Assembly (NCBI GenBank): GCA_022827095.1
Contig: JAJDTP010000019.1
Span: forward strand, 186,001-250,000
Direction of reading: 5' to 3'
Length of the DNA stretch: 64,000 bases
Source: Dehalococcoidia bacterium
GTDB taxonomy: Bacteria; Chloroflexota; Dehalococcoidia; Lucifugimonadales; UBA3495
Shown one piece after another: positions 29,534-32,706 of this stretch. The first letter of the stretch is position 1, and each line of letters begins with the position of its first letter. The translations under genes were made by a program, and so were the position numbers. Below the pieces are notes generated by a model that was given only the letters and a program-made list of their open reading frames with translations, searched no databases and was not told the DNA's origin.

Positions 29534-31294
29534 ATGCCAGTTAAAGGGACCACGATGAGCAGTTACCGACCGCTAATGCAGGGGGTGAACGGCATGGTTG
29601 CGGCCAGCCACCCCAGCGCGGCCATGGCCGGCCTGGAGGTGTTGAAGAAGGGTGGCAACGCGATTGACGCCGGTGTAGCCGTCGGCCTGGCGCTGAACGT
29701 CGTACACGTCGACGATTGCAGTTTCCTGGGCGTGGCGCCCACGGTCATTTACCTGGCCAACCGCAAGGAGGTTGTCACCGTCGATGGCCTGGGCGTATGG
29801 CCCAGGGCAGCGTCGGTTGATTACTTCCACAAGCACCACGGGGGGAGGATGCCGCCCGGCGTGTTGTCGTCTCTGACGCCAGCCGCCGCCGATTCGTGGA
29901 TCACGTCCCTTTCGAAGTTTGGCACGATGACCTTCGGACAGGTGGCGTCCGCCGCCATCGACTTGGCCGGCAACGGTTTCCCCATGTTCCGGTACCTGGC
30001 CGGCCGGTTCAAGACGGCCTACGACCAGTACAATGCCTACCCGTCGACCGCCGAGATCTACCTGCCCGGAGGCCGCCCGCCCAAGCAGGGCGAGATGTTC
30101 TACCAGAAGGACCTGGCCGCCACCCTGTCCAAACTGGCGGACATCGAGGCTTCAAACGCGGGCAAGGGCCGGGAAGCGGCAATGAAGGCGGCTCGGGACT
30201 ACATCTACACCGGCGAACTGGCGCACAAGATTGTCGCCTTCAACCAGGAGATGGGCGGTCTGCTCACCGAAGAAGACCTGGCCGCGTACCACGTCCAGGT
30301 GGGGCCGCCGGTGACGGTCAACTACAAGGGCTATGACGTCTACAGCACCGGGCCGTGGGGACAAGGGCCGACGTTCCCCCAGGCGCTCAAGATCCTCGAG
30401 GGCTTCGACCTGGCGTCCATGGGCCACAACTCCACCCAGTACGTCCATACCGTAAGCCAGGCGCTGAACCTGGCCTTCGCCGACCGGGAGCGATACGTGG
30501 GTGATCCCGATTTCGTGGATGTTCCGATCAAGGAAATGTTCGCCGAGGAATACCTGACCAAGCGCCGCGCCCTGATCGACCCCGACCTGGCCTGGCCAGG
30601 GACGCCACCGGCGGGCGACCCGCGGAAGGGGAAAGCGACCGTGGAGGGCGCGCCGCAGTCTCCGCGGGAGGCCGGCGTGCCGGTGGGCACCGCCGGAGTC
30701 AGTGGCGGCGGAACGTCCTATTTCGCCGTGATCGACCGGGACGGCAACATCTTCTCCTGCACGCCCAGCGAGGGCACCAAGAACGGCGGGCCGATCATCC
30801 CGGGCACGGGCCTGGCCTTCTCGCTGCGCGGCACCCAGTCCAAGCTGAACGAAGACCATCCGGCGTCGGTGGTCGGCGGCAAGCGTCCCCGGCTCACCCC
30901 GGCGCCGGCGTTGGTGCTGCGGGATGGAGAGTCGGTCATGGCATTGGGCGCCCATGGCGGCGACCACATCCCGCAGGGCACGCTGCAACTGCTGCTCAAC
31001 GTGCTGGAGTTTGGCCGGGATCCCCAGGAGGCCGTGGAGGAACCACGCTTCTACAGCTACAACTTCCCCAGCTCCAACTGGGCGTCGCGGTACGATCCGG
31101 GAATGTTGCGCCTGGAGGGCCGCATCTCCGACGAAGTGGTCGACGGCCTGCGCCAAAAGGGCCACACGATAGAGCAATACCCGGAATGGTGGGAAGGCTC
31201 GGCCCTGTATTGCGTCATTACGCGCAACCCCGAGACTGGAGTGCTGCAAGGTGGCGCTGATCCTAGGTGCGAGGCCTACGCCGTGGGCTATTGA
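29534..31294 (+). CDS. Gamma-glutamyltransferase family protein
   Basis: A 586-residue Ntn-hydrolase of the GGT family. The N-terminal half has GMVAASHPSAAMAGLEVLKKGGNAIDAGVAV. The self-processing nucleophile is the Thr in GVSGGGTSYFAVIDRDGN, and the second substrate loop is KRPRLTPAPALVLRDG. Where many GGTs have Thr-Thr-His at the nucleophile this one has Thr-Ser-Tyr. There is no signal peptide, unlike periplasmic GGTs, so it may work in the cytosol, perhaps on glutathione conjugates or as a cephalosporin-acylase-like amidase. GGAGG precedes the ATG at 29534. A hairpin follows the stop. Confidence 0.9.
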   Translation: MPVKGTTMSSYRPLMQGVNGMVAASHPSAAMAGLEVLKKGGNAIDAGVAVGLALNVVHVDDCSFLGVAPTVIYLANRKEVVTVDGLGVWPRAASVDYFHKHHGGRMPPGVLSSLTPAAADSWITSLSKFGTMTFGQVASAAIDLAGNGFPMFRYLAGRFKTAYDQYNAYPSTAEIYLPGGRPPKQGEMFYQKDLAATLSKLADIEASNAGKGREAAMKAARDYIYTGELAHKIVAFNQEMGGLLTEEDLAAYHVQVGPPVTVNYKGYDVYSTGPWGQGPTFPQALKILEGFDLASMGHNSTQYVHTVSQALNLAFADRERYVGDPDFVDVPIKEMFAEEYLTKRRALIDPDLAWPGTPPAGDPRKGKATVEGAPQSPREAGVPVGTAGVSGGGTSYFAVIDRDGNIFSCTPSEGTKNGGPIIPGTGLAFSLRGTQSKLNEDHPASVVGGKRPRLTPAPALVLRDGESVMALGAHGGDHIPQGTLQLLLNVLEFGRDPQEAVEEPRFYSYNFPSSNWASRYDPGMLRLEGRISDEVVDGLRQKGHTIEQYPEWWEGSALYCVITRNPETGVLQGGADPRCEAYAVGY

Positions 31295-31354: not shown

Positions 31355-32110
31355 CTATCGGCTGACCACGGATGCGGCGCAGGCTTCGATTGCGTGCTCC
31401 CACTGATCCAGGTTGAAGAAATGAGGTCCGGCCCCGCCGTGGTACGCCACGTTGCCGTCGACGTCCACCAGGTACAGGCGTTCCGGCGCCGCGCCGTATG
31501 CTTCGTCGATGGCGTTGTCCATTTCCTCGATGATGATGGGTAGGCCGATGTGCAGGTCGATGCTGCACGATTGGGCAACCGATTCCCGTTCCTGATAGCT
31601 CTGGTGCTGGCGGAACAGTATCCCTTCCGCCACGTTGCTGTCCGTCTGCCAGCCGTCGGTAGGGTGGGCCTCCTGGACGTAGACGACAAAGAACTCCACC
31701 GATTCATTGTAGCGACGGTAGATTTGGGTCATGCGCTCAGACTGGGCGCGGAAGGGCGGTCAAGTGTAGCTGCCAAAGGCCAGCGCCACCGGCCGCTGCC
31801 CGCGAAAATCGGACAGGCGAACCCGTTCGTCAGAACCCAACCGTTTGAGGTCGAAGCCCGGGGCAACCTCGCCCACGTGGGGACCCATCTCGTCCCGCGC
31901 CACCACCGCTTCCAGGGCCAACTTGACGTCCCCGGGCAGTGGCTCATCCCAGTTCTCCATGACCTGGCGGGCGGTCACTTGTCCGGCGTCGGTTTGGCCG
32001 TTGGGGCTGTACGCCCTGGCCTCCTTCATTGCATCGACAACTCGCCTGAAAACCCGCCGGTCCTGGGCGCCGAGCCGGGTTATGGCGTTGTCACGTTCTG
32101 CTTTCAGCAT
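31355..32110 (-). CDS. Iodothyronine-deiodinase-like selenoprotein (UGA as selenocysteine at codon 117)
   Basis: Two open frames (32110-31763 and 31759-31355) are joined in the same frame by a TGA at 31762-31760. Translating it as Sec gives a 251-residue thioredoxin-fold protein with ALAFGSYTUPPFRAQ. This is the same context as the catalytic Sec of vertebrate deiodinases (FGSxTUPPF). The family pattern continues after the UGA with FFVVYVQEAHPTDGWQ and ends AYHGGAGPHFFNLDQW. The N-terminal part (GEVAPGFDLKRLGSDERVRLSDFRGQ) is peroxiredoxin-like. GGGAGG lies 6 bases before the ATG at 32110. The likely role is selenium-based reduction (peroxidase or reductive dehalogenation); the substrate is unknown. 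SelA, SelB and SelC are not in the window. Confidence 0.85.
31733..31749 (-). promoter_or_regulatory. Candidate bacterial SECIS hairpin
   Basis: In the mRNA the UGA is followed by 10 bases and then GCGCCCAGUCUGAGCGC, a 17-nt hairpin with a GCGC/GCGC stem and GU in the loop. The upper stem-loop of the E. coli fdhF SECIS is of this size and lies at nearly this distance from the UGA. The sequence and spacing are seen; recognition by SelB is inferred. Confidence 0.55.
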
Positions 32111-32151: not shown

Positions 32152-32706
32152 CTACCGGCTGGCGACCGCGGCTTCGGTCAGGTCGCGGATGGCGTCCACC
32201 GTTTCCGGGCCGGCGGGCGTGCCCATCCGTACGTTTTTGACCGCCTCGTAGGACCGCAGCACGTCCGCCATGACCGCGTCGTCAGACTGGTCAATGTCGA
32301 TGGGGATGCCGACCTGCGCCCACGATGTGTACCCGGTCAGCCAGAACACCTCGGTGGGGTTGTTCTCCGGGTCTCGGAAGTAGCAGCCGATAGCGCTGGC
32401 GTGGCTGACGATGCGGTCCAACTGGTATCCGCGTTCGTGGATGCGCCGCTTGAAATCGCGCAAATCATCCAGGGATTCCACACGCATCGAAATCTGCTGA
32501 ATCCAATGCGGATCATCCAGCGAAGGCCGTCCGTTGATCAGGGCGATTTCGTGATCGCAGCTTTCCGGATCCGCGCTGAAAAAGGCGCCCAGCGGGCCGA
32601 CCTTGGTACGCTGCATTCCCATGAAATTCTCGTAGAAGTCCATCATGAGTTCGAGGTCATGAACGTAGAAGCCGATATGACCGAGGCCCGTAACTTTCGC
32701 CGACAT
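32152..32706 (-). CDS. VOC family (glyoxalase/extradiol dioxygenase-like) protein
   Basis: A 184-residue vicinal-oxygen-chelate protein. The first module starts VTGLGHIGFYVHDLELMMDFYENFMGM with the metal His, and the second ends CYFRDPENNPTEVFWLTGY with the Glu ligand position. The C-terminal tail of about 50 residues is helical and unusual in length. The start ATG 32706 has GAGGAG 6 bases upstream. It is on the same strand as the deiodinase-like selenoprotein, 41 bases upstream of it, so they may share a transcript. Ring cleavage or isomerisation is possible; no substrate can be assigned. Confidence 0.88.
   Translation of the reverse strand: MSAKVTGLGHIGFYVHDLELMMDFYENFMGMQRTKVGPLGAFFSADPESCDHEIALINGRPSLDDPHWIQQISMRVESLDDLRDFKRRIHERGYQLDRIVSHASAIGCYFRDPENNPTEVFWLTGYTSWAQVGIPIDIDQSDDAVMADVLRSYEAVKNVRMGTPAGPETVDAIRDLTEAAVASR

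Follow-up and report, generated by a model that had tools for sequence, protein, structure and literature searches.

Bacterial deiodinase-like selenoproteins are already known from marine metagenomes of 2005 and 2008. Four such sequences, with both Sec and Cys forms, were reported from the Sargasso Sea data in 2005 (PMC1088965), and 22 were reported from the GOS data in 2008 (PMC2398784). A redox function for these proteins had already been proposed at the time of those two reports (PMC1088965, PMC2398784), and recent catalogues list the bacterial proteins as UxxC (PMC9312934, PMC13188914). For the animal enzymes, the proton-relay residues of Dio2 have been described as Ser127, Thr129, Tyr157, Glu160, His162 and His182 (PMC11592359). 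Another point of reference is the atypical two-cysteine peroxiredoxin Tpx, in which C61 and C95 form a pair within one subunit (PMC3288085).

The gene described here lies in a 64,000-nucleotide stretch of a Dehalococcoidia contig, which is referred to as the window, and is one more member of this group. It shares with the bacterial proteins of the earlier reports (PMC1088965, PMC2398784, PMC9312934, PMC13188914) the family PF00837, an in-frame UGA with a bacterial hairpin, an origin in marine or uncultured bacteria, and a proposed redox role. In contrast to the catalogued UxxC type, the window type has UPPF and a distal cysteine, Cys182, and unlike in the earlier reports the gene is tied to a host lineage (Chloroflexota, SAR202-like) with the full Sec machinery. 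No paper joining SAR202 with a selenoprotein or a deiodinase was found in the open literature. The unremarked part, and the part worth following, is a cysteine swap among the relatives. Standard gene callers split such genes; placing the family in a named lineage whose Sec machinery is complete offers tangible material for the question of what the forerunner of the thyroid-hormone deiodinases did, and the cysteine-swap pattern makes that question experimentally approachable by mutants. The features of the locus are as follows:

31355..32110, minus strand: deiodinase-like selenoprotein gene, 251 aa with Sec117 (from frame analysis, PF00837, and Dio3 and Dio2 as the best solved relatives)
31760..31762, minus strand: UGA read as Sec, the predicted catalytic Sec117 in FGSYT-U-PPF (from TGA in 18/18 close relatives and in distant ones, and from the host Sec genes)
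31733..31749, minus strand: putative bacterial SECIS hairpin (from its position after the UGA, covariation, folding surplus, and published bSECIS spacing and loop rules)
31565..31567, minus strand: codon of Cys182 (AQSC), the proposed resolving cysteine (invariant in alignment A1; reciprocal with Cys at Sec+3)
32152..32706, minus strand: glyoxalase/extradiol-dioxygenase (VOC) family gene (PF00903), directly upstream on the same strand with a 41-nt gap

Two minus-strand ORFs, 31760-32110 (116 aa, starting with ATG) and 31355-31732 (125 aa), were found to lie in one common frame, and the TGA at 31760-31762 is the sole interruption of that frame. When this codon is read as U, a single 251-residue protein results (M...FGSYT-U117-PPFR...EAHPTDGW...GPHFFNL...*), and a Shine-Dalgarno-like GGAGG is located 5 bases 5′ of its ATG. 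The first-pass annotation had proposed a deiodinase-like protein whose two frames are joined in phase by a TGA at the catalytic Sec position of deiodinases, with EAHPTDGW and GPHFFNL downstream, and had expected it to be split into two short ORFs under the standard code. Each of these points was borne out; both ORFs have a start codon of their own, and membership in the Pfam family T4_deiodinase is above the cutoff. The protein consists of a helical N-terminal extension (residues ~1-74) and a thioredoxin/deiodinase-fold domain (residues ~75-250). The N-terminal segment (MLKAxRD...) is conserved, and the Pfam and NCBIfam matches start only at residues ~65-79. As read by eye from the sequence and the model, this part is charged and helical and has no evident hydrophobic segment or anchor.

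The gene is predicted to encode a bacterial deiodinase-family selenoprotein. It scored 119.9 bits against PF00837 (T4_deiodinase), for which the gathering cutoff is 27. Its C-terminal half also matched positions 173-340 of the 347 positions of NCBIfam NF038285 (deiodinase_rel, "deiodinase family protein") with 191.6 bits, although this is below the curated cutoff of 250 bits and the N-terminal half is not shared. By sequence, the best solved relatives were mouse Dio3 (E 1.5e-27) and Dio2 (E 1.1e-21). Dio3 and Dio2 also ranked first with Foldseek; ResA, AhpE and Tpx were matched by both Foldseek and VIA, and with VIA, ResA, AhpE, Dio2 and Dio3 were tied at Z ~18. The AlphaFold model had a mean pLDDT of 75.5, with the loop-D region (148-166) mostly below 50. 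A plasmid search gave a single match, which was distantly deiodinase-like. When mouse Dio was included in the tree it fell on a very long branch, and its placement was not used.

Compared with animal Dio2 and Dio3 (4tr3, 9h48), the protein is 26-34% identical across the catalytic core, with the value varying by aligner, and has the TUPPF motif, the EAHPxDGW loop-D and the relay residues. In the alignment it carries Sec in TUPPF together with the Ser/Thr/Tyr/Glu/His/His relay by which iodothyronine deiodinases are recognized; all six named Dio2 residues are matched, and nearly all of the relatives match them except at the second His. In clade L042-L055 this second relay His (His169 in the window protein) is replaced by Pro, with Sec kept. 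Unlike the animal enzymes, the window protein has the helical residues ~1-74 with no evident hydrophobic anchor (a by-eye reading), a distal cysteine located elsewhere (Cys182, in the helix after loop-D) and an in-frame bacterial SECIS, and thyroid hormone is not expected as its substrate. With ResA, AhpE and Tpx it shares the fold (VIA Z 16-19) and the location of a redox-active residue, where the same helix begins, but identity to them is ~15-23% and it has the deiodinase loop-D. Peroxiredoxins have the active-site motif PxxxT/SxxC, with a Pro at -7. In the window protein the Ser at Sec-3 is present, but this Pro is absent and Leu stands at Sec-7.

To describe the cysteine swap, the 51 Sec sequences were compared at two positions, 182 and Sec+3. 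All 42 relatives with Phe at Sec+3 have Cys at position 182, while in 8/8 relatives with Cys at Sec+3 there is no Cys at that position. The UPPC and UPYC relatives (L059-L064, L084 and L087) are without Cys182 and so show the opposite arrangement to the window type, and one UPPA-type Sec relative (L065, near 1004 on the minus strand) has neither Cys at Sec+3 nor Cys182. The swap was first spotted in the sequences in hand and the prediction was noted; eight phylum sequences that were fetched later agreed with it (6 + 2). Because no more than one to three events on the tree account for the swap, the 42-to-8 split does not represent 50 independent tests, and its Fisher value overstates the pattern. 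The natural reading, by analogy, would be that a single resolving cysteine has two alternative positions, which recalls the atypical two-cysteine peroxiredoxins, for example Tpx. The pattern thus suggests a movable resolving cysteine, which points to a selenenyl-sulfide redox cycle rather than to proven dehalogenation. The distal Cys of animal deiodinases occupies a further, different position (PMC11592359). A broader and more tentative proposal, which we hold to be possible though not the likelier outcome, is that Chloroflexota deiodinase-family selenoenzymes switched the site of their resolving Cys, with Sec+3 and the helix that follows loop-D as the alternatives, that animal deiodinases use a third place, and that thyroid-hormone deiodination evolved out of an ancestral family that worked by selenenyl-sulfide redox chemistry.

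In terms of function, the explanation that fits best, and which we regard as probable, is a bacterial deiodinase-family selenoprotein with hairpin-directed insertion of Sec117 that acts as a Sec/Cys182 redox enzyme. SelB loaded with Sec-tRNA would bind the hairpin and Sec117 would be inserted, and the product would be a soluble thioredoxin-fold redox enzyme. The Sec selenolate would then attack an oxidised or electrophilic substrate, which may be a peroxide, a disulfide or a carbon-halogen bond; Cys182 would close the selenenyl species to a selenenyl-sulfide, and thioredoxin-like reductants would recycle it. A role as a thiol/selenol peroxidase or reductase, to which we give a better than even chance, is favoured over deiodination, which appears unlikely. 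The missing peroxiredoxin Pro at Sec-7 and the lack of either cysteine in L065 count against this favoured redox reading.

The complete deiodinase relay would also suit dehalogenation, and the strongest competing explanation is that the protein is a true reductive dehalogenase that, like animal deiodinases, uses its selenolate to abstract I or Br, here from halogenated aromatics, and feeds a catabolic pathway. The equivalents of Dio2 Ser, Thr, Tyr157, Glu160, His162, Trp167 and His182 are all present (residues from PMC11592359), the TUPPF motif is animal-like, and loop-D has the same length as in Dio2. Gene neighbours that would suit this explanation are the dioxygenase-superfamily gene adjoining the deiodinase-like gene in the nearest lineage and, for a different clade, a gene upstream of it that by eye resembles dienelactone hydrolase. 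However, no constant halogen-pathway neighbour was found among the relatives, one clade swaps the second relay His for Pro yet retains Sec, and a Cys at 182 or at Sec+3 suits a dithiol or selenenyl-sulfide cycle. Dehalogenation is for these reasons considered an improbable main role, and the redox enzyme with a resolving cysteine is the preferred reading.

The VOC gene upstream of the deiodinase-like gene occurs in the same order in L018-L020 and in them only, and may be an operon partner in this nearest lineage alone. No pathway common to the gene neighbours of the relatives was found, and the neighbours, which differ between clades, do not discriminate between the redox and the dehalogenase reading. 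In the second marine clade (L025-L035), the conserved dienelactone hydrolase-like gene (named by eye) is located ~0.2-1 kb upstream on the same strand, and downstream on the other strand there are two genes that resemble a thiamine-dependent decarboxylase pair (also named by eye). The window itself is rich in catabolic-type genes between 21273 and 42896, where a luciferase-like monooxygenase, an amidase, an FAD oxidoreductase, VOC and beta-lactamase-like genes, NHL repeats and MFS transporters were seen.

The UGA in the deiodinase-like gene is almost certainly read as Sec, a prediction that is based on the conserved TGA, the coding evolution after it, the covarying hairpin, the Sec genes, and the T4_deiodinase match with its relay residues. 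A contig scan of genomes yielded 20 relatives, of which 18 were Chloroflexota covering the site, one was from Verrucomicrobiota, and one was a fragment without the site. TGA was kept in 18/18 of the close relatives covering the site, all from independent Chloroflexota (SAR202/Dehalococcoidia) assemblies, and the class and phylum searches gave further, more distant copies that mostly have TGA. A Cys form, with TGC at the site, was seen in the Verrucomicrobiota relative (L036). In comparisons of the window with the three relatives nearest to it, dN/dS after the TGA was ~0.13-0.14, lower than in the stretch before it. As judged from these sequences, the conservation of the TGA together with codon evolution that continues across it is far beyond chance. 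The neighbouring gamma-glutamyltransferase gene (29534-31294) ends in TGA, which indicates that the code is standard and that TGA is otherwise a stop.

The 17-nt GCGCCCAGUCUGAGCGC starts exactly 10 nt after the UGA and can form a hairpin with 6 pairs, one of which is a C-A mismatch in the window copy and also in L021-L024, and with a 5-nt loop, AGUCU, that starts 16 nt after the UGA. According to published bSECIS rules, the loop lies 16-37 nt after the UGA and has a G in its first two positions, and -7.5 kcal/mol serves as an energy guide (PMC13188914). The window hairpin agrees with the loop and spacing rules (16 nt, AGUCU/AGGUY), but its 39-nt MFE of -6.6 kcal/mol misses the energy guide (PMC13188914). 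Among 18 sequences the six-pair stem was formed in 95.4% of cells, as against 19-68% for slid versions, and 3/6 pairs had changed on both sides, for example from C-G to U-A. For 42 sequences, the 39 nt after the UGA gave a mean z of -0.96 relative to codon-preserving shuffles. Since other stretches of the same genes gave values near zero (-0.33 to +0.32), the folding surplus is confined to the region after the UGA. Taken alone, the 39-nt MFE of the window's copy was not below that of synonymous shuffles, a 56-nt fold of this copy favours another structure, and no SECIS was matched when the gene was searched against Rfam. The evidence for this putative element is therefore comparative, and the window's own copy is weak. 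As read from the sequences, L042-L051, which belong to a more distant clade, seem to have the hairpin a few bases further downstream, with the loop G kept.

All four Sec genes were found in the host genome, the completeness of which is 97.65%. The scores were 540.9 bits for selA (cutoff 267.9), 355.5 bits for selB (cutoff 242.25), which includes the SECIS-binding winged helices SelB-wing_2 and SelB-wing_3, and 376 bits for selD (cutoff 125). A tRNA-Sec (selC) with anticodon UCA was found by Rfam (66.4 bits) and by ARAGORN; as the Rfam search also scores ordinary tRNAs in control genomes, this claim rests on the ARAGORN tRNA-SeC call. The selD gene (L015, 1393-2445, minus strand) has an in-frame TGA of its own in LSHCAGUAAK, and this CAGU motif makes SelD a second predicted selenoprotein in the same genome. 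Across the class, raw hand counts from the tables gave selA in 23/27 genomes with a TGA copy and in 197/294 genomes overall; its absence in the remaining 4/27 is possibly due to incomplete assemblies. The first-pass annotation's inference that the host makes selenocysteine was thus upheld, and its proposal of a hairpin with near-SECIS geometry stood with regard to position, spacing, loop, covariation and, on average across the relatives, folding better than shuffles, but not with regard to the window's own copy, which has the mismatch and a fold that is not significant.

That the UGA is a true stop, with the halves being separate genes or the downstream half unexpressed, would accord with the two ORFs and their start codons under the standard code and with the weakness of the window hairpin on its own. 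We consider it very improbable, since TGA is retained in 18/18 relatives and in diverged copies where the annotation's alternative of true stops with separate genes was not observed, purifying selection acts on both sides of it, the genome has Sec machinery and a SelD that uses Sec, and the second half would begin inside the thioredoxin fold without the catalytic residue. A sequencing or assembly error for TGC or TGT (Cys) might be suggested by the TGC form in L036, but this reading is in practice refuted by the same TGA across 18 independent assemblies as well as more distant Chloroflexota, and by the hairpin, which goes with the Sec forms.
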